Source: Rhodovulum strictum (GTDB lineage: Bacteria; Pseudomonadota; Alphaproteobacteria; Rhodobacterales; Rhodobacteraceae). Taken from it: a stretch of DNA of 64,000 nucleotides. A model generated the notes under the pieces. It was not told where the DNA came from. It did no database searches and saw only the letters and a program-made list of their open reading frames with translations. The stretch covers positions 1-64,000 of the forward strand of contig NZ_WJPO01000018.1 in the NCBI RefSeq assembly GCF_009649175.1, in the 5' to 3' direction. A program made the position numbers and the translations under genes. The first letter of the stretch is position 1. The number at the start of each line of letters is the position of its first letter. Positions 42,585 through 52,332 of this stretch are shown here, piece by piece.

Positions 42585-42686
42585 GGGGGCCTCCTGCTCG
42601 TGCCGCGCCAAGCTAGCGGCTGGCCTCGCAGGCGCAAGCGTTCGTCGCATTGCAAGGCGGCCTCGATTCGCCTAAATCCATCCGCC

Positions 42687-43208
42687 ATGAGCATCCGACC
42701 GATCCTGATCCATCCCGATCCGCGCCTGAAGACGGTGGCCGACCCCGTGTCGGACATCACGGGCGAATTGCAGCGCCTGGCCGAGGACATGCTGGCCACC
42801 ATGTATGACGCGCCGGGCATCGGCCTAGCCGCGCCGCAGGTGGGGGTTCTGACCCGCCTGATCGTGATGGATTGCGCCAAGGACGTGGGCACGCGGCCCC
42901 GGCCCTTTGCCATGTTCAACCCCGAAGTGGTCTGGAAATCGGACGAGCGCAACATCCACGAGGAAGGCTGCCTTTCGGTGCCCGAGACCTATGCCGAGGT
43001 GACGCGCCCCTCCGAGGTCGTGGTGCGCTGGACCGATCCTGCGGGCGACCAGAAGGAAGAGAAATTCTCGGGCCTCTGGGCGACCTGCGTCCAGCACGAG
43101 ATCGACCATCTGGATGGCATTCTGTTCATCGACTATCTCAAGCCGCTGAAACGCCAGCTCATCACGCGCAAGATGCAGAAGATCAAGCGCGATCGGGCCC
43201 GGGCGTGA
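42687..43208 (+). CDS. def: Peptide deformylase 1
   Basis: The 173-residue deformylase has all three motifs: GIGLAAPQ, EGCLS (metal Cys95) and QHEIDH (metal His137 and His141, catalytic Glu138). It removes the formyl group from nascent proteins. It heads a four-gene coupled cluster with two more deformylase paralogues and fmt. Confidence 0.93.
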   Translation: MSIRPILIHPDPRLKTVADPVSDITGELQRLAEDMLATMYDAPGIGLAAPQVGVLTRLIVMDCAKDVGTRPRPFAMFNPEVVWKSDERNIHEEGCLSVPETYAEVTRPSEVVVRWTDPAGDQKEEKFSGLWATCVQHEIDHLDGILFIDYLKPLKRQLITRKMQKIKRDRARA

Positions 43209-43699
43209 GCATCCTGCCGATCGTCACCTGGCCCGATCCGCGCCTGACCGCGCCCTGCGCCCCGGTGGGCGAGATCACCGACGAAATCCGCGTGCTGGTC
43301 GCGGACATGCTGGAGACGATGTATGACGCGCCCGGCCGGGGGCTGGCCGCGCCGCAGGTGGGCGTGTCCCGGCGGATCTTCGTGATGGATGTGAACGGCC
43401 GGGCGGGGCCGCGCGCGCCACGCATCTTCCTCGACCCGGTGATCGAGGCGTGGTCAGAGGACACCGCCACCGGCCCCGAGGGTTGCCTGTCGATCCCCGG
43501 CATCGTGGTCGAGATCGAACGGCCGGTCGAGATCGCCCTGCGCTGGCGCGACATCGACGACACCGAGCAACGCGAGACGCTGGTGGGCTTTCCGGCGATC
43601 TGCGCCCAGCACGAGATCGACCATCTGGACGGCATCGTGACCTTCGACCGCGTCAGCCCCGAAGCACGCGCCGAACTGGAACGGACATATCGCGCATGA
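43205..43699 (+). CDS. def: Peptide deformylase 2
   Basis: The 164-residue paralogue retains GRGLAAPQ, EGCLS (Cys94) and QHEIDH (His136, Glu137, His140), so it should be active. The GTG start overlaps the previous stop (GTGA). Confidence 0.88.
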   Translation: MSILPIVTWPDPRLTAPCAPVGEITDEIRVLVADMLETMYDAPGRGLAAPQVGVSRRIFVMDVNGRAGPRAPRIFLDPVIEAWSEDTATGPEGCLSIPGIVVEIERPVEIALRWRDIDDTEQRETLVGFPAICAQHEIDHLDGIVTFDRVSPEARAELERTYRA

Positions 43700-44199
43700 T
43701 CCGGCCGATCCTGCAATGGCCCGATCCGCGCCTGAAGACCGCCGCCGCCCCGGTCGAGACCGTCACCGACGAGATCCGCGCTCATTGGGCCGACATGATC
43801 GACACGATGGAGGCGATGCCGGGGCAGGGTGTGGGCCTTGCCGCACCGCAGATCGGGGTCATGCTGCGGCTGGCGGTCGTGGATTGCTCGGACAGCCGCG
43901 GTCAGGTCGTGCGCATGGCCAATCCCCGGATCGTCGCCGCCTCGGCCGCGCTGAACGCCCATGACGAGGCCAGCCCTTGCCTGCCCGGCGTTTGGGCCGA
44001 GATCACGCGCCCCGCGCAGGTGACGGTGCGCTTCCTGAACCAGGATGGCGTCGTCGAGGACCGCGAGTTTGCCGAGCTCTGGGCGACCTCGGTACAGCAC
44101 CAGATCGACCATCTGGAGGGCCGGATGTATTTCGACAACCTGTCGCGGCTGAAACGCGACCGGCTTTTGAAAAAGGCCGCCAAGCTGGGGCGGGGCTGA
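43696..44199 (+). CDS. Peptide deformylase-like protein lacking the catalytic Glu
   Basis: The 167-residue third paralogue keeps GVGLAAPQ and the metal ligands Cys95, His135 and His139, but HExxH has become HQxxH (Gln136) and EGCLS has become SPCLP. In deformylases Glu is the general base, so deformylation should be severely reduced. ATGA start/stop overlap with deformylase 2 and TGATG junction with fmt show it is kept in a coupled operon, which argues against simple decay. Confidence 0.85.
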
Positions 44200-45098
44200 T
44201 GCGCGTCGTCTTCATGGGCACGCCCGATTTCTCGGTGCCGGTGCTCGATGCACTGGTCGATGCGGGCCACCAGATTGCCGCGGTCTATTGCCAGCCCCCC
44301 CGCCCCGCCGGTCGCGGCAAGAAGGACCGCCCCTCGCCCGTCCAGGCCCGCGCCGAGGCGCTGGGCCTGCCGGTTCGTCACCCGGTATCGCTGCGCAGCG
44401 CCGAGGCGCAGGCCGAGTTCGCCGCTTTGGGCGCCGATGTGGCGGTCGTGGTCGCCTATGGGCTGATCCTGCCGCAGCCGGTGCTGGACGCGCCGCGGCT
44501 GGGCTGTCTGAACATCCACGCCTCGCTGTTGCCGCGCTGGCGCGGCGCGGCGCCGATCCACCGGGCGATCATGGCGGGCGACGCGGAAACCGGCATCTGC
44601 ATCATGCGGATGGAGGCGGGGCTGGATACCGGCCCCGTGCTCTTGCGCGAGGCAACGCCGATCGGGGCCGAGGAAACCACCGGCGAGTTGCACGACCGGC
44701 TGTCCGCCATGGGCGCGCGGCTGATCGTGCAGGCGCTGGACCGGCTGGACGATCAGCCGCCCGCGCCGCAGCCCGAGGCGGGCGTGATCTATGCCGACAA
44801 GATCGACAAGGCCGAGGCGCGCGTGGACTGGACCCGCCCCGCTACCGGGATCGTGCGTCAGATCAACGGCTTGTCCCCCTTCCCCGGCGCCTGGTGCATG
44901 GTCGGGGGCGAACGACTGAAGCTGTTGCGCGCGCGGCTGGCCGATGGCACGGGCACGCCCGGTCAGGTGCTGGGCGGGCTGACCATCGCCTGCGGATCGG
45001 GCGCAATCGAGGTTCTGGAAGCCCAGCGCGAGGGCAAGCGGCCGATGCAGGCCGCCGAGATCCTGCGCGGCCTTGCCCTGCCCGAGCGGCTGGACTGA
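44199..45098 (+). CDS. fmt: Methionyl-tRNA formyltransferase
   Basis: The 299-residue enzyme starts [18 protein letters not shown] and has [20 protein letters not shown] with the catalytic Asn-His and the Asp in GLDTGPVL. It formylates initiator Met-tRNA, the counterpart of deformylase. Its ATG overlaps the third def-like stop by one base. Confidence 0.95.
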
Positions 45099-46014: not shown

Positions 46015-46653
46015 TCAGGCGCCGGGCTGCCCCGATTGCGTGATCCGGCCGTCGGCCATCACGGCCAGACAGTCGGCCTCGGTCCTCGCCTCGTCCCGGT
46101 CATGGGTAACGACCAGCATGGTCAGGCCGGTGCGGTCGCGGATGTCCCGCAAGAGCTGCCACAAGGCGCGGCGCGGTTCGGCATCGAGCGCCGCAAAGGG
46201 TTCGTCGCAAAGCAGCAAATCCGGCTCGACCGCCAGCGCACGGGCCAGCGCCACCCGCTGACGCATGCCGCCCGAAAGCTGGCGGGGGTATTTCCCGGCA
46301 TCGCCGGGGCCCAGCCCGACCGCATCCAGCATCGCCACGGCACGCGCGCGCCGCTCTGCCGCGCCAAGGTCCAGCCCCCGCAGCGCGAAGCCGACATTGC
46401 CCAGCGCCGTCTTCCACGGCAACAGCGCCGGATCCTGAAACACGATCCCCAGTCGCGTGCAGCGCCGCGCGACCCGACCCGCATCGGGGGTCAGAAGCCC
46501 GGCGGCCAGCGCGATCAGCGTGCTCTTGCCGCAGCCCGATGGCCCCATCAGCGCGGTGATCGTGCCCGCGGGCAATATCAGGTCAAGCCCGCGCAGCACC
46601 GGCCTGCCGTCATGGGCGAAATCGACGCCGTCAAGGCGCAGCGGTTCGCTCAT
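46015..46653 (-). CDS. ABC transporter ATP-binding protein
   Basis: The 212-residue ATPase has Walker A GPSGCGKST, signature LSGGMRQRVALARAL, Walker B DLLLCDEPFAALD and the H-loop VVTHD. It belongs to the NitT/TauT-type family by its cluster. Its ATG overlaps the permease stop (ATGA), and it is the last gene of the hydrogenase operon. Confidence 0.88.
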   Translation of the reverse strand: MSEPLRLDGVDFAHDGRPVLRGLDLILPAGTITALMGPSGCGKSTLIALAAGLLTPDAGRVARRCTRLGIVFQDPALLPWKTALGNVGFALRGLDLGAAERRARAVAMLDAVGLGPGDAGKYPRQLSGGMRQRVALARALAVEPDLLLCDEPFAALDAEPRRALWQLLRDIRDRTGLTMLVVTHDRDEARTEADCLAVMADGRITQSGQPGA

Positions 46654-47423
46654 GCCCCGACGCCCCGCCCGTCATCGCGCCAATGGGCCATCCGGCGCTG
46701 AAGCGGTTGCAGCAGCGCCAGATCGACCGCGACCAGCACCGCCACCACGACCAGCACCCAGGCCATAATCGCGACCGTATCGACATGCGCGCGCGCGGTG
46801 GCCAGCCCGTCGCCGATACCGCCCGCACCGGCCAGCAACTCGGCCATGACCGAAACCTTCCAAGACATCGCCAGCGTCGTGGCCAGCGCGGGAAACACAT
46901 GGCCCAGCATATGCGGCAGGTGCATGTGGGCAAGCCGTGCGCCAAGCGGCACCCGAAACGCCCGCGCCATTCGGATCAGCCCGCCATCGAGGCTGTGAAC
47001 CCCGGCCACGGCCGCGGCAAAGACCAGCGGGCCGGTCGCCACGGCCACGGTGAACACGACCGCCCAGCGCCCACCGAACCACAGCAGCGCCAGCACCACC
47101 CAGGCAATCGCGGGGATCCCCAGCAGCACCACCGCGACCGGCTGCAATGCCCGCTGCGCCTCGGGACGCAGGCCCGCCAGTGTTCCGGCGATCATGCCCG
47201 CCGCCGCGCCCAGCACCCATCCCATCCCGGCATTCCCGGCGGTCTGGGCCAGCGCCGGGGCAACGCGGCCCTCGGCGATCATGTGCCAAAGCGTGACGCC
47301 CGTCTCGGCCAGACCGGGCAGCACCAATGGCCCCCAGATGCGATGCCCGGCCTCCCACAGGATCGCCAGCAGGGCAAGGCCCGCAAGGCTCCAGAGCCGG
47401 GAGGGGCGGGGCTTGTTCGCCAT
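46650..47423 (-). CDS. ABC transporter permease
   Basis: The 257-residue permease has about six membrane helices and an EAA-like loop (RVPLGARLAHMHLPHMLGHVFPAL). ATG 47423, 4 bp after the upstream stop, has GGGG and AGGG upstream; a start at 47450 would overlap. Paired with the adjacent ATPase and binding protein. Substrate unknown. Confidence 0.85.
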   Translation of the reverse strand: MANKPRPSRLWSLAGLALLAILWEAGHRIWGPLVLPGLAETGVTLWHMIAEGRVAPALAQTAGNAGMGWVLGAAAGMIAGTLAGLRPEAQRALQPVAVVLLGIPAIAWVVLALLWFGGRWAVVFTVAVATGPLVFAAAVAGVHSLDGGLIRMARAFRVPLGARLAHMHLPHMLGHVFPALATTLAMSWKVSVMAELLAGAGGIGDGLATARAHVDTVAIMAWVLVVVAVLVAVDLALLQPLQRRMAHWRDDGRGVGA

Positions 47424-47427
47424 TTCC

Positions 47428-48408
47428 CTAGCCCCAGTAGAAATCGGCATCGGGCAGGCGGTGCGCGACGATGCCCGGGGCCAGCGCCATGAGGTGCTGG
47501 AAATAGGTCTCGATATCCTGCTGCGCCTGCCGCGCCGTCACCACGTCAAGCCGCACGAAGGGCAGCGAGCGGGCCACGATCTCGGGCGCAAGACCCAGAT
47601 GCGGCGCGGCCAGCGCGCCCGCCGCCGCCGGGTCGGCCTGCGCCCAATCGGCGGCCTCGATACAGGCGGCATGGGCGGCGGCGACAATTTCGGGCGCGCG
47701 GTCCAGAAATTCGGCACTGACCGCCAGCCCGACCTGCGGGATCCGCGGGCCGCGCCCGGTATGCTGGCCATAGATCTCGGCGATGTCGAGCGCGCGGATC
47801 AGGGGCAAGCCTTCGCGTTCGGCGCGGATCTGCGCGGCCGTAGCGGCCGGTTCGTGCAGCAGCGCCACATCGCCCCGCCCGGACAGGAACAGCGGCACCG
47901 CCTCGCCCGGCGAACCGACATAGTCGAGCCGCAGATCGCGGTCTGGGTCCAGCCCGGCCCAGCCCAGCACCATACGAAACAACAGATCCGGCGCCTCGTT
48001 CTTGTTCGACAACAGCACCCTTCGACCCGCCAGATCCGCGATCGAGCGGATGCGGTCATCGCGCGCCATGACGTAAAGCACACCCCAGGTCACGACATTC
48101 ACCATCCGCGTGCCCGCCCCGCGATTGAAGAAATTGGCCGCGGCATAGGTGGAACTGGCAAACAGCCGGAATGCGCCCGAGGCGATGCCCGCGCGCAACT
48201 GGTCGGTGCTTTTCCAGATCTCGAACCGCGCGCCGGGGGCGGCGCTCTGGAACCGTTCGGACGCCACCGCCCCGGCAAAGACCGCCGAAGGCGTGCCCGG
48301 AATGCCCCAGAGCGTCAGGGGCTCGCCCCCCCGCGCCGGGCCCGCAAGGGGCAGTGCGGCCAGCCCGGCCAGAACGGCGCGGCGGTCAAACGACAGCGCC
48401 CGGGTCAA
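47428..48408 (-). CDS. ABC transporter substrate-binding protein, NitT/TauT-like
   Basis: The 326-residue protein has a signal sequence with an Arg-Arg pair (SFDRRAVLAGLAALPLAG) and two-lobe binding-protein segments (ASSTYAAANFFNRG, SIADLAGRRVLLSNKN, LDYVGSPGEAVPLFLSGRGDVALLHEPA). The likely start is TTG at 48408, overlapping the hydrogenase stop as TTGA, so its translation depends on the hydrogenase gene. Relatives bind nitrate, sulfonates or thiamine precursors; none can be chosen here. Confidence 0.75.
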   Translation of the reverse strand: MTRALSFDRRAVLAGLAALPLAGPARGGEPLTLWGIPGTPSAVFAGAVASERFQSAAPGARFEIWKSTDQLRAGIASGAFRLFASSTYAAANFFNRGAGTRMVNVVTWGVLYVMARDDRIRSIADLAGRRVLLSNKNEAPDLLFRMVLGWAGLDPDRDLRLDYVGSPGEAVPLFLSGRGDVALLHEPAATAAQIRAEREGLPLIRALDIAEIYGQHTGRGPRIPQVGLAVSAEFLDRAPEIVAAAHAACIEAADWAQADPAAAGALAAPHLGLAPEIVARSLPFVRLDVVTARQAQQDIETYFQHLMALAPGIVAHRLPDADFYWG

Positions 48409-50258
48409 TAGACCATCGTGCTCATGGTGATGTCGTCCCAGATTTCCTTGACGGTATGCTTCAATTCGCGCCGTCGGTCCTCATAGCTCGTGTGCAGCAG
48501 CCGGTGCGCCAGTTCCGAGTTCGGCGCGCCCAGGAAATCGCGATAGAGCGCCTGCACCTGCGGGTTGTTGTGCGACTGGCGCACGCGGGCGGCGCGGTCG
48601 ACCGCATAGATCGTTTCGCGCCGTTTCTGGGCCAGCGGCAGATACGCCTTTTTCGAACGCAGCGACCCGCCCCCATCGACGCAGCCGCCGGGGCAGGCCA
48701 TGACCTCGATGAAATCGTAATCGGCCGTGCCTGCCAGCACCGATTCCACCAGCGCACGGGTGTCGCCAAGCCCGTGGACCATGGCCACCCTGACCTCGCC
48801 CACCGGCCCGCCCAGATCGACGCGGGCCTCGCGGATGCCTTCGAAACCGCGCAACTGGGTCAGTTCGATCTGCTCCAGTTCGCTTCCGTTGACGATGGCA
48901 TAGACGGTGCGCAGCGCGGCCTCCATCACGCCGCCGGTGGTGCCGAAGATGGCGCCCGCACCGGAATATTCACGCAGCAAGGGGCTGTCGAAGCCCGAGG
49001 GTTCCAGCGCCTTCAGGTCGATCCCCTCGCGGCGCAACAGGCGCGCGAATTCGCGGGTGGTCAGCACCAGATCGGTATCGGGCCGCCCGTCGCGCGCCAG
49101 TTGCGGGCGCGCCGCCTCCTCTTTCTTGGCGACGCAGGGCATGATCGAAATCACCCGGATCCGCTCGGCCGGAACGCCCAGCTTCTCGGGCAGCCAGGTC
49201 TTGGCCACGGCCGACAGCACCTGTTGCGGCGACCGGGTCGAGGACAGAAGCGGCAGGATCTCGGGATAATGGATCTCGGCAAAGTCGATCCAGGCCGGGC
49301 AGCACGAGGTAAAGGTGGGCCGGCGACCGGCCTTGAGCCGGCCCAGCAATTCGGCGCCTTCCTCCATGATGACGACATCCGCCGCGAAATTGGTGTCCAG
49401 CACCACGTCGATGCCCAGCCTGCGGCAGGCGGTGGCGATATGCCCCTCGACATTGGTGCCGGGGGGCATGCCGAATTCCTCGCCAAAGGCGACGCGCACG
49501 GCGGGGGCGAATTGCACCACCGTCACCAGATCAGGGTCGCAGATATAGTCGATGGCCCGGTCGGTCTCGTCGCGTTCGCCCAGCGCGCCGGTGGGGCAGA
49601 CCAGAACGCATTGCCCGCAGGACACGCAGGCCGAGGAGGGGTAATCCTCGGCGCCCCGCAGCGCCACCAGCCGGTCAAGCCCGGTGCCCTCCATCGCCAG
49701 CGCATCGACCTGCTGGTGATGACGGCAGATCGCGACGCAGCGCTGGCAGCGCACGCAGCGGCGCATGTCGCGCACCATCGCGGGCGAGGTCAGGTCGATG
49801 GGACGCGCCTCGGTCCGGGCACGGTCGAAGAAGCGATTTTCCTTGAGCCCGACGAACTGCGCCAGATCCTGCAATTCGCAATTGCCGTGGCGGATGCAGG
49901 TCGCGCAATCCTGCAAATGGTCGGCCATCAGCAGTTCCACCTGCAAGCGCTGCATGTCGCGGGCGCGCTTGCTGCGGGTCCGCACTTCCATCCCGTCGCG
50001 GATGGGCGTGTTGCAGGCGGTCACGATCTGCGGCGTGTCGCGACCGGCCTGCACGATCTCGACCACGCAGACCCGGCAGGTGCCGGGGGTGTGGTCGATG
50101 TCGTCCAGTTCGCACAGCGTCGGGATGTAGATGTCATGCCGCCGCGCACAGGACAGGATGGTTTCGTTCGCCCGGCCCGTGCAGGGCGTGCCGTTGAGGG
50201 TCAGCGCCACGGTCTCGGGCGCGTCGGGGCCGGGTGTGTCGGGGCCGGAGGTATACAT
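48405..50258 (-). CDS. [FeFe]-hydrogenase catalytic subunit
   Basis: The 617-residue protein has, in order, a [2Fe-2S] domain (Cys49, 61, 64, 82), a His-Cys3 [4Fe-4S] site (His114, Cys118, 121, 127), two ferredoxin [4Fe-4S] sites (Cys168-178 and Cys211-221) and the H-cluster domain with TSCCP (317-321), MPCVAKKEE (373-381) and MACPGGC (520-526). The H-cluster ligands Cys320, 375, 522 and 526 and the proton-relay Cys319 are all present, followed by the small C-terminal domain. It should make or oxidise H2. It begins 4 bp after the flavoprotein gene. No HydE, HydF or HydG is in the window, so maturation genes must be elsewhere. Confidence 0.9.
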   Translation of the reverse strand: MYTSGPDTPGPDAPETVALTLNGTPCTGRANETILSCARRHDIYIPTLCELDDIDHTPGTCRVCVVEIVQAGRDTPQIVTACNTPIRDGMEVRTRSKRARDMQRLQVELLMADHLQDCATCIRHGNCELQDLAQFVGLKENRFFDRARTEARPIDLTSPAMVRDMRRCVRCQRCVAICRHHQQVDALAMEGTGLDRLVALRGAEDYPSSACVSCGQCVLVCPTGALGERDETDRAIDYICDPDLVTVVQFAPAVRVAFGEEFGMPPGTNVEGHIATACRRLGIDVVLDTNFAADVVIMEEGAELLGRLKAGRRPTFTSCCPAWIDFAEIHYPEILPLLSSTRSPQQVLSAVAKTWLPEKLGVPAERIRVISIMPCVAKKEEAARPQLARDGRPDTDLVLTTREFARLLRREGIDLKALEPSGFDSPLLREYSGAGAIFGTTGGVMEAALRTVYAIVNGSELEQIELTQLRGFEGIREARVDLGGPVGEVRVAMVHGLGDTRALVESVLAGTADYDFIEVMACPGGCVDGGGSLRSKKAYLPLAQKRRETIYAVDRAARVRQSHNNPQVQALYRDFLGAPNSELAHRLLHTSYEDRRRELKHTVKEIWDDITMSTMVY

Positions 50259-50261
50259 GGC

Positions 50262-52244
50262 TCAGACCGCTCCTTCGGGGATGGGATGGCCGGTTAGGAC
50301 CGTGTAGACGCGATAGCAACGCATGCAGCGTTGCGCCTCGGCATAGGCGGCCTTGGCGCTGATCGTCTGTTCGACCTCCTCGAACATGCGTTTGCGCAGT
50401 TCGGGGTCTAGTTCGGGATTATGCACGCGATAGGCGTTGCGCACCGGGGTTTCGACCACGTCATTGGCCAGGAAATCGTTGTCGGCGATCAGCTTGCGCA
50501 TCCTTGCGCGCTTGTAGAACCTGACCGAGCCGCGCTGGATCCAGTCGTCGATATTGCGCGCGGCCTTCAGCCCGTCGGCCATCGCCCAGATCAGCGTCGA
50601 GGGGCCGGTCACGCAATCGCCCCCCGCAAAGACGCCCGGCCGCGAAGTCGTGAGCGCGTCATCGGCGGCCACGCAGCGCCAGCGGTCCAGCGCGATGCCG
50701 TCCGCCTCGATCCGGCCGCCATCCTCGACCTGCTGGCCGATGGCGGCGATCAGCGTGTCGCAGGGCAGCGTGACCTCGCTGCCCGGGATCGGGCGGACCT
50801 TGCGCCGGCCGCTGTCGTCGGGCTCGCTCTGTTCCATCTGCGCGACCACGACGCCGGTGACCCGGCCATTCTGCGTGACGACGCGGACCGGGTTGCAAAG
50901 CGTGTGAAAGGTGACGCCCTCGGCCTCGGCATCCGCGATCTCGCCGGGATCGGCGGGCATGTCCGCGCGGGTGCGGCGATACAGGACATGCACGCGCCCC
51001 GCCCCCAGCCGGATCGCCGAGCGCACGCAATCCATCGCGACATTGCCGCCGCCCACCACCAGCACCTCGCCCGACAGGGACAGCGGCGCAGCACCCGCAA
51101 CATGATCGTGAACGCGCAACAGGAAGTCGATGCCGCTGAAATAGCCCGCCCGCGCCGCGTCCTCGCCCTCGACCCCCAGCCGCGATCCCGCCTGGCAGCC
51201 AAGCCCCAGGAACACCGCCCGGTAGCCGCGCGCGAACAGATCGTCGATGCTGAAATCGCGGCCGAGCTGCTGGCCGAACAGGAACCGCCCGCCCAGATCG
51301 GCGATGATGTCGGTTTCCAGCGCCAGCGTGTCTTTGGGCAGCCGGTAGGCGGGAATGCCGATCTGCGCCATGCCGCCCGCCTGGCCTGCCTTGTCGAACA
51401 CATCGACGTGATAGCCGCGCAACAACAGGTGATAGGCACAGGAAATGCCCGCCGGACCCGCACCGACCACCGCCACCCGCATGGCCGGATCCAGCGGCTT
51501 GCGGATCATGTCGCGGGTGAATGTCAGCGCGTTCGGGCCGCTTTGCTGGTCGGCGACGAAGCGTTTCAGGGTCTTGATGCCCACCGCCTCGTCCACGAAC
51601 TTGCGCCGGCAGGCCTGTTCGCAATAGCGCACGCAGACCCGCCCGCAGGTCGCCGCCATCGGATATTTCTGCAAGAGCACCCCCAGAGAGTTCTCGGGCT
51701 TGCCGTCGCGGATATAGTCGATGTAACGCGGCACATTGACCTTGGAGGGGCAGGCCTCGATGCAGGGCGCGGTCATGTAGGCCATGCCGTGCTGCGCGCG
51801 GATCGGGCGTTTCGGGGCCAGTTCGGCCTCGATCCGGTCGCGGAAATGATGCAGCGCATCCAGCAGCGCCACCGCACAGGTCTGGCCCAGCCCGCAAAGC
51901 GAGGTTTCCCGCATCTGCTCGCCCAGCATCCCGATCTGATCCAGATCCAGCGGCGCATCCAGCCCGCGCCGCATCGCGTCCAGCGCATCGCGCACCAGAA
52001 CCGTGCCCATCCGGCAGGGCGTGCAGACGCCGCAGGATTGCTCGGCCGCCTTGCGCATGTAGTGAAACAGCGCGTCCACCAGGCTGACGGTTTCATCGAA
52101 CACGAAGAAGCCGCGATCCCCGAAAAAGGCGCGGATCGGGTTGCCCTCGTCGAACTCGTCGAAATTGCGCGGCTCAAGGGTGGCCTGCCCCGCCTGCCGG
52201 TCATGGACGACCCCGTCCCAGACCCCGTAAACCACGTCTGTCAT
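50262..52244 (-). CDS. NuoF C-terminal/GltD-like FAD oxidoreductase fusion
   Basis: The 660-residue flavoprotein has a NuoF-derived tail at residues 45-140 (SCGVCTPCRMG; [4Fe-4S] ligands Cys71, 74, 77, 117) without NuoF's FMN/NADH-binding core. A GltD-like unit follows: iron-sulfur Cys161-212, FAD motif GAGPAG at 261-266 and NAD(P)H motif VVGGGNVAMDCVRSA. It probably moves electrons between NAD(P)H and the hydrogenase encoded next. ATG 52244 follows AAAGGAG. It is the first gene of the operon. Confidence 0.87.
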   Translation of the reverse strand: MTDVVYGVWDGVVHDRQAGQATLEPRNFDEFDEGNPIRAFFGDRGFFVFDETVSLVDALFHYMRKAAEQSCGVCTPCRMGTVLVRDALDAMRRGLDAPLDLDQIGMLGEQMRETSLCGLGQTCAVALLDALHHFRDRIEAELAPKRPIRAQHGMAYMTAPCIEACPSKVNVPRYIDYIRDGKPENSLGVLLQKYPMAATCGRVCVRYCEQACRRKFVDEAVGIKTLKRFVADQQSGPNALTFTRDMIRKPLDPAMRVAVVGAGPAGISCAYHLLLRGYHVDVFDKAGQAGGMAQIGIPAYRLPKDTLALETDIIADLGGRFLFGQQLGRDFSIDDLFARGYRAVFLGLGCQAGSRLGVEGEDAARAGYFSGIDFLLRVHDHVAGAAPLSLSGEVLVVGGGNVAMDCVRSAIRLGAGRVHVLYRRTRADMPADPGEIADAEAEGVTFHTLCNPVRVVTQNGRVTGVVVAQMEQSEPDDSGRRKVRPIPGSEVTLPCDTLIAAIGQQVEDGGRIEADGIALDRWRCVAADDALTTSRPGVFAGGDCVTGPSTLIWAMADGLKAARNIDDWIQRGSVRFYKRARMRKLIADNDFLANDVVETPVRNAYRVHNPELDPELRKRMFEEVEQTISAKAAYAEAQRCMRCYRVYTVLTGHPIPEGAV

Positions 52245-52318: not shown

Positions 52319-52332
52319 TTGATCCAGCGCAA
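52319..52332 (-). promoter_or_regulatory. Imperfect FNR/FnrL-like site
   Basis: TTGAT-CCAG-CGCAA has one perfect and one 3-of-5 half-site of the FNR consensus TTGAT-N4-ATCAA. It ends 75 bp before the flavoprotein start, an activating position for anaerobic control. The match is weak. Confidence 0.3.

Follow-up and report, generated by a model that had tools for sequence, protein, structure and literature searches.

Five adjacent genes at positions 46015-52244 of a 64,000-nucleotide stretch of Rhodovulum strictum DNA (contig NZ_WJPO01000018.1; the whole stretch is called the window below) encode a flavoprotein (FLAV), an [FeFe]-hydrogenase catalytic subunit (HYD), and the periplasmic binding protein (SBP), permease (PERM) and ATPase (ATP) of an ATP-binding cassette (ABC) importer. 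The linkage of hydrogenase and importer is conserved in other genomes, the maturases HydE, HydF and HydG (together HydEFG) are missing, the HYD active site is intact and under constraint, and importer and maturases have a complementary distribution among relatives. It is likely that the cofactor supply of this enzyme, or the cofactor itself, is non-classical. The reading we tentatively favour, as one possibility among several, is that the importer replaces HydEFG for HYD, perhaps by bringing in a preformed diiron cofactor or a precursor of it.

Gene organization

The unit in the window consists of:

FLAV, 50262..52244, minus strand: 660-residue flavoprotein partner (PF10589, PF14691, PF07992)
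HYD, 48405..50258, minus strand: 617-residue [FeFe]-hydrogenase catalytic subunit (PF02906, 2e-84; PF02256)
SBP, 47428..48408, minus strand: periplasmic binding protein, NMT1/SsuA fold, TTG start
PERM, 46650..47422, minus strand: ABC permease (PF00528), best start 47422
ATP, 46015..46653, minus strand: ABC ATPase (PF00005)

All five genes had been proposed at this place in an earlier reading of the DNA made without database searches (the sequence-only reading), and all were confirmed. That reading also described 4-bp gaps and start/stop overlaps. The overlaps are as it gave them (TTGA between HYD and SBP, ATGA between PERM and ATP), and SBP and PERM are indeed 4 bp apart (TAG-GGAA-ATG), the PERM start having been re-set to the ATG located 4 bp past the SBP stop; the FLAV/HYD junction, TGA-GCC-ATG, had to be corrected to a 3-bp gap. 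With an NMT1/SsuA-fold binding protein, one permease and one ATPase, the importer is of the NitT/TauT type.

Conservation of the hydrogenase-importer linkage

A scan of genome contigs gave 42 loci with a HYD relative. FLAV is adjacent to HYD in 39 of these, and SBP and PERM are adjacent to FLAV-HYD in 27, bearing out both the adjacency that the sequence-only reading had proposed looking for elsewhere and its treatment of transporter and hydrogenase as one unit, which is conserved in several families belonging to Rhodobacterales and Hyphomicrobiales. The position of the importer varies: it lies downstream in Rhodovulum, Rhodobacter, Rhodopseudomonas, Aliiruegeria and three of four Tropicimonas loci, upstream and divergent in Cohaesibacter, Rhodobium, Pleomorphomonas and bin L021, and upstream on the same strand in Tropicimonas isoalkanivorans (L044). 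That the link is kept through such rearrangement argues for function, and a functional link between importer and HYD is very probably real. The ATPase is not adjacent to PERM in L012 and L142 (12938-13279), where it may be shared from elsewhere. In neighbour tables for 11 loci, all that recurs in more than 18 loci is the five genes themselves, reading frames that overlap them, and a second HydA in L036.

HYD is present in four of 390 sampled genomes of the order, the window's own counted, in keeping with the earlier remark that [FeFe]-hydrogenases are uncommon there. The HYD tree places Rhodopseudomonas together with Rhodovulum adriaticum (90/88), within a well-supported group of Rhodovulum and Rhodobacter (100/95), and has two Cohaesibacter sequences between Tropicimonas and that group (97/91); this mixing of families suggests that the unit travels as a whole. 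Plasmid-borne copies of HYD were sought as well, but all 15 plasmid records matched were below 60% identity. Searches of a library of open-licence papers found no description of an importer linked to a hydrogenase of this kind.

Importer and maturases across genomes

HydE, HydF and HydG are generally regarded as necessary for an active [FeFe]-hydrogenase. The genome to which the window belongs (100% complete, 97 contigs) has a single PF02906 protein, and hence one [FeFe]-hydrogenase gene; searches of it gave no match to HydG or HydE at E<=0.001, and for HydF gave generic-GTPase matches only (67.6 bits, against a cut-off of 325.55). The sequence-only reading had called the hydrogenase apparently active: its site is intact, but with HydEFG missing from the genome activity cannot be assumed. 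Lack of HydEFG was also one of two findings named there as making a shared hydrogenase function unlikely. The lack is real, but the comparison of genomes points the opposite way, since the importer occurs where HydEFG is missing.

HydG was found above cut-off in 20 of 40 relatives' genomes, HydE in 21 of 40, and HydF in 23 of 48 genomes with the window's own counted (in the HydF search, G320, G381 and G406 are probably the same genomes as G003, G034 and G012). The three maturases agree across the 37 relatives searched for all of them except G025, which has HydE and HydF with HydG below cut-off; sub-cut-off radical-SAM matches (in three Cohaesibacter genomes, G022, G024, G025 and others) were not counted.

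Both states could be classified for 39 of 47 loci, these 39 all with A2-type HYD ("A2-type" denoting likeness to the published description of group A2, not HydDB classifier output). In 18 the importer is present and the maturases are absent; 11 are maturase-bearing and importer-less, meaning that no importer lies in the fetched flanks of HYD; nine have both and one has neither. Left out were L013 and L046 (importer-positive), L027 and L045 (Pleomorphomonas-like bins, at contig ends), L032 (a 3.8-kb contig from a maturase-negative bin) and L047-L049 (other hydrogenase types); L033 was kept, with just 0.8 kb downstream of HYD covered. All nine loci with both are from Pleomorphomonas, each with a second HydA that its maturases may serve, and in nine of nine of these genomes HydF and the importer-linked HYD are on separate contigs. 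In the eight importer-less genomes searched for all three maturases (G023, G025-G029, G033, G040), HydE and HydF are on the HYD contig, within about 10 kb. A Fisher test on the 39 loci gives p = 0.0012, a value that is not tree-aware and overstates the case.

A later search, made after the pattern was seen, covered 317 genomes of the order of G033 (Oleispirillum). G1058 fits the pattern: it has a single A2-type HYD, is HydF-negative, and has SBP and PERM starting 20 bp downstream of HYD. G944, G945 and G951 are HydF-positive, with a second HydA and no importer in the fetched flanks. In the HYD tree the G1058 copy groups with Roseiarcus (L033) and L035 (82/90), which both have maturases and are importer-less, a placement that looks like a second event.

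The hydrogenase and its flavoprotein partner

HYD has a CpI-like layout, with 2Fe-2S, NuoG-type and 4Fe-4S domains at the N-terminus followed by the H-domain and small-subunit domain. It exceeds the TIGR02512 cut-off (510 bits vs 406) and has the group A [FeFe]-hydrogenase motifs TSCCP, MPCxxK and ExMACxxGC together with the H-cluster cysteines, L1, L2 and L3 all being intact; against the NCBIfam model for group A6 (NADH-dependent [FeFe] hydrogenase) it falls short of the cut-off (716.5 bits vs 765). FLAV combines a NuoF-type 4Fe-4S region with GltD-like Fer4_20 and FAD/NAD(P) domains, and a Pfam search found no NuoF FMN/NADH domain in it at E<=0.001. Among solved structures, its best relatives carry the chain names molybdopterin oxidoreductase (9bov), NfnA, formate dehydrogenase-O (8oh5), dihydropyrimidine dehydrogenase subunit A and GltD. 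From its domains, the electron partner of FLAV would be NAD(P)H.

Seventeen H-cluster, [2Fe]-pocket and proton-path positions, whose CpI numbering and roles are presumed here, are invariant in 19 of 19 main-clade HYD sequences and identical in G1058. They include C319, K378, M373, M520, E300, E303 and S339, which are believed to contact the [2Fe] unit or the proton path; another, A253, is Ser232 in CpI and Ala in all A2-type sequences compared and in the solved HydA proteins 8a6t and 7q4v. The mean ratio of H-domain to Fe-S-domain divergence stands at 0.748 for the maturase-less clade, 0.765 for importer-less relatives with maturases and 0.947 for Pleomorphomonas; by these ratios there is no relaxation of the catalytic H-domain in the maturase-less clade. 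The ratio of nonsynonymous to synonymous substitution rates (dN/dS) for HYD is 0.04-0.19 in seven chosen pairs, and the ATPase is the least constrained part in four of the six pairs compared for it.

A strict comparison of importer-linked with other HYD sequences found no separating residues. A comparison by clade found 14 positions specific to the maturase-less clade, among which only residue 349 (Ser in 19 of 19 main-clade sequences, Gly in 21 other A2-type sequences) seems, in our judgement, to be near the active site. An intact, constrained site of this kind is not to be expected from decay or from an entirely new active site, though it falls short of proving H2 chemistry.

The importer family and its possible ligand

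What might the importer carry? The best NCBIfam matches are far below cut-off (SaoP for PERM, 71 vs 295 bits; the SsuA family for SBP, 39 vs 164) and provide no sequence clue to the ligand. Of 28 aligned SBPs, 26 have a twin arginine at the N-terminus and the remaining two are gapped there. The AlphaFold model of SBP has a mean predicted local distance difference test score (pLDDT) of 92.6, and its nearest solved folds are 3hn0, PqqT and SsuA.

Of 12 inspected relatives of SBP that are not linked to HYD, ten are linked to NnrS, and are 28-42% identical to the window's SBP:

SBP-permease-ATPase-NnrS group, widespread: L119 9463-13379; L124 1490-5486; also L125-L128 and L145-L148

A TonB-dependent receptor lies in or beside the operon in four of these ten (L126, L127, L145, L148); L145 also has hutW/hutX heme genes, and L147 has ferritin, an imelysin-family gene and a gene annotated "transcriptional repressor". 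SBP relatives are on 56 plasmid records as well, eight of which were inspected. The other two of the 12, in L120 and L121, stand beside genes that we read as CO-dehydrogenase-like from their open reading frames; they are distant and were not used for function. Searching the window, the 42 HYD loci and L139-L142 by tblastn with four NnrS proteins gave no NnrS. In Cohaesibacter celericrescens the HYD contig also has a second, NnrS-linked importer (L124).

A single clade (100/100) unites the 28 main-group HYD-linked SBPs. Recruitment of SBP on two occasions from NnrS-type importers was considered and is possible, yet a single origin of the 29 HYD-linked SBPs is not rejected (approximately unbiased test, AU p = 0.20). 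The 28 main-group SBPs and at least eight of the ten NnrS-linked ones share a conserved core consisting of P37, S41, W65, D69, R72, N92, N95, N104, G109, N137, P140, D141, E169, E186, R205, D208, P224 and Q225, and positions specific to the HYD-linked clade include A139, P172 and R219. Related but not identical ligands are therefore plausible from the alignment.

There is a resemblance between dinuclear iron-nitrosyl thiolates and the diiron carbonyl-cyanide precursor from which the H-cluster is made. The NnrS and TonB context of the sister importers suggests nitric oxide (NO) and metal chemistry: NnrS is described in one paper, citing earlier work, as one factor that would shield the iron pool from dinitrosyl iron complexes (PMC11526790). 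A second paper, of no further help on the ligand, places nnrS in the nar locus (PMC9409073). The sequence-only reading had offered an electron acceptor, a cofactor precursor or a signal as the imported compound. Of these, the cofactor precursor gains weight from the distribution of the importer, which is found where HydEFG is missing and not beside the 11 maturase-bearing HYDs outside Pleomorphomonas.

A proposed role, and its alternatives

In the reading favoured here, FLAV-HYD would be an NAD(P)H-linked, group-A2-like [FeFe]-hydrogenase working without HydE, HydF or HydG, and the importer would take up from the surroundings what these would otherwise make, most likely a small ready-made iron complex, either the [2Fe] subcluster or its direct precursor. 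The complex would be bound in the periplasm and, as expected of the importer family, carried inwards; the [4Fe-4S] half of the H-cluster would come from the housekeeping Fe-S machinery, as it generally does; the diiron unit would insert into apo-HYD without HydF, as synthetic [2Fe] does in artificial maturation; and FLAV, judging by its domains, would exchange electrons with NAD(P)H. Such chemistry is possible, since a synthetic [2Fe] complex given to living Escherichia coli or Synechocystis is reported to activate apo-HydA (PMC6984386). A more specific and rather unlikely possibility is cofactor piracy, in which the host is unable to make the diiron half and the importer takes it, or a direct precursor, from maturase-bearing neighbours. 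If so, the five genes would be a portable unit conferring an [FeFe]-hydrogenase without HydEFG, and the sister importers linked to NnrS would deal with iron-nitrosyl complexes of related chemistry.

Several points weigh against the importer as a replacement for HydEFG. We know of no free [2Fe] complex documented in nature, and the real complex is O2-labile. HYD-linked SBPs form a clade of their own, so that ligand similarity to the NnrS group is an inference. The first importer gain on the HYD tree includes Pleomorphomonas, which keeps both importer and HydEFG; the tree needs two importer changes and three maturase changes, too few for a significant tree-aware test, and the complementary pattern comes down to about two independent events. 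Within that pattern, importers were looked for in the fetched flanks of HYD, and the maturase state of G1058, G944, G945 and G951 is that of the HydF search; G1058 has no ATPase beside its SBP and PERM. The A2-type locus with neither importer nor maturases is from a metagenome bin (L034/G024) that has three HydA genes and is perhaps incomplete. HydA genes of other types, with no FLAV or importer nearby, also occur in HydF-negative genomes (L122 in G610, L144 in G961), so that missing maturases are not always accompanied by this importer.

The main alternative, which we regard as doubtful, is that HYD is no longer a hydrogenase and contains Fe-S clusters only, FLAV-HYD being an NAD(P)H-dependent reductase or oxidase with the imported compound as its substrate. 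HydEFG would then be missing because the [2Fe] unit is not needed, the importer attached to maturase-less HYD copies could bring a substrate, and the FLAV family does include pyrimidine and transhydrogenase subunits; but the residues thought to touch the [2Fe] unit or proton path are invariant, the H-domain is not relaxed, and S349 alone among the clade-specific positions seems to be near the active site. That same intact site would be expected if a true H-cluster were made by another maturation route encoded elsewhere, the importer bringing only a starting material or some accessory nutrient (iron, an iron chelate or a ligand precursor). The TonB receptors and iron or heme genes near sister importers are consistent with this, as is an ATPase that is often the least constrained part and not adjacent in L012 and L142. 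We nonetheless think it somewhat unlikely: no further recurrent gene appears in the tabulated neighbourhoods, which are as far as that comparison extends, and the unit seems to have moved between families, harder if distant genes were needed. It is quite improbable that the importer's compound is a signal or an electron sink for H2 metabolism, co-transcribed for joint regulation only. The gene spacing in the window would suit co-transcription, but this would leave unexplained both the presence of the importer with HYD copies of HydEFG-less genomes and the divergent arrangement in Cohaesibacter, Rhodobium and Pleomorphomonas.

Surroundings of the unit and other hydrogenases

The unit is flanked by a chemotaxis receptor gene upstream and an M48 peptidase gene downstream, neither counted as a member. 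A possible regulatory site precedes it:

TTG-N8-CAA element, TTGCGCTGGATCAA, 52319..52332, minus strand: 88 bp upstream of the start of FLAV; candidate Crp/Fnr-family site that departs from the consensus FNR box

The window and, allowing for one altered base at most, L010-L013 and L042 (Rhodovulum/Rhodobacter loci) have the element at a distance of 88-149 bp upstream of FLAV. Control by FNR was considered and set aside for the window, where no site with at most one mismatch lies upstream of FLAV; sites at that threshold occur in two of 37 upstream regions (L033 and L039, both importer-less), vs 0.18 expected by shuffling. Elsewhere in the window, at 42639-45098 on the plus strand, three peptide deformylase genes lie in tandem, followed directly by a methionyl-tRNA formyltransferase gene.

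Stand-alone [FeFe]-hydrogenases of about 690-701 residues, with no FLAV or importer, are encoded at L122 8382-10454 (minus strand) and L123 1499-3604 (plus strand). The L122 protein has a C-terminal SnoaL-like domain, and its gene has a flavodoxin/FMN-reductase-like gene nearby; as its genome, G610, is negative in the HydF search, it apparently represents another kind of HydA without maturases.

Significance and comparison with known systems

Orphan alphaproteobacterial hydrogenases have so far been set aside as probably inactive or of other function. Those described here are intact, strongly constrained, and tied to one importer family in two separate maturase-less parts of the HYD tree; Pleomorphomonas is a third importer-bearing group, but one that has maturases too. 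If the importer does replace the maturases, artificial maturation would have an equivalent in nature, and there would be a simple way of producing these enzymes in other hosts; if it does not, an [FeFe]-hydrogenase fold has acquired a new function.

Artificial in vivo maturation is like the proposed process in that an external diiron complex activates an apo-hydrogenase, but it is a laboratory procedure and not natural import. A possibly similar case is Rhodospirillum rubrum, an alphaproteobacterium with a HydA and a genome reported to be without maturases, in a paper that also states HydE, HydF and HydG as required for an active [FeFe]-hydrogenase (PMC4967309); compared with that published description, the unit adds the importer link and a site constrained across many species. 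HydDB describes group A2 as "glutamate synthase-linked (putative)", gives its role as undetermined, and defines it by a downstream, GltD-like partner with no NuoF domain (PMC5037454). FLAV-HYD shares the pairing of a CpI-like catalytic subunit with a GltD-type flavoprotein, but has FLAV upstream of HYD, an added NuoF-type 4Fe-4S region, an importer attached, and HydEFG missing. On the importer side, the NnrS-linked operons of denitrifiers and others have the same importer family and conserved SBP core, accompanied by NnrS, nar/nap or TonB receptors where the unit has a hydrogenase. PqqT, which binds the redox cofactor pyrroloquinoline quinone (PQQ; 9b1u, 9b1v, 9ooz), is only 20-21% identical to the HYD-linked SBP, but is among its top structural matches, and is a precedent for cofactor binding in this fold.

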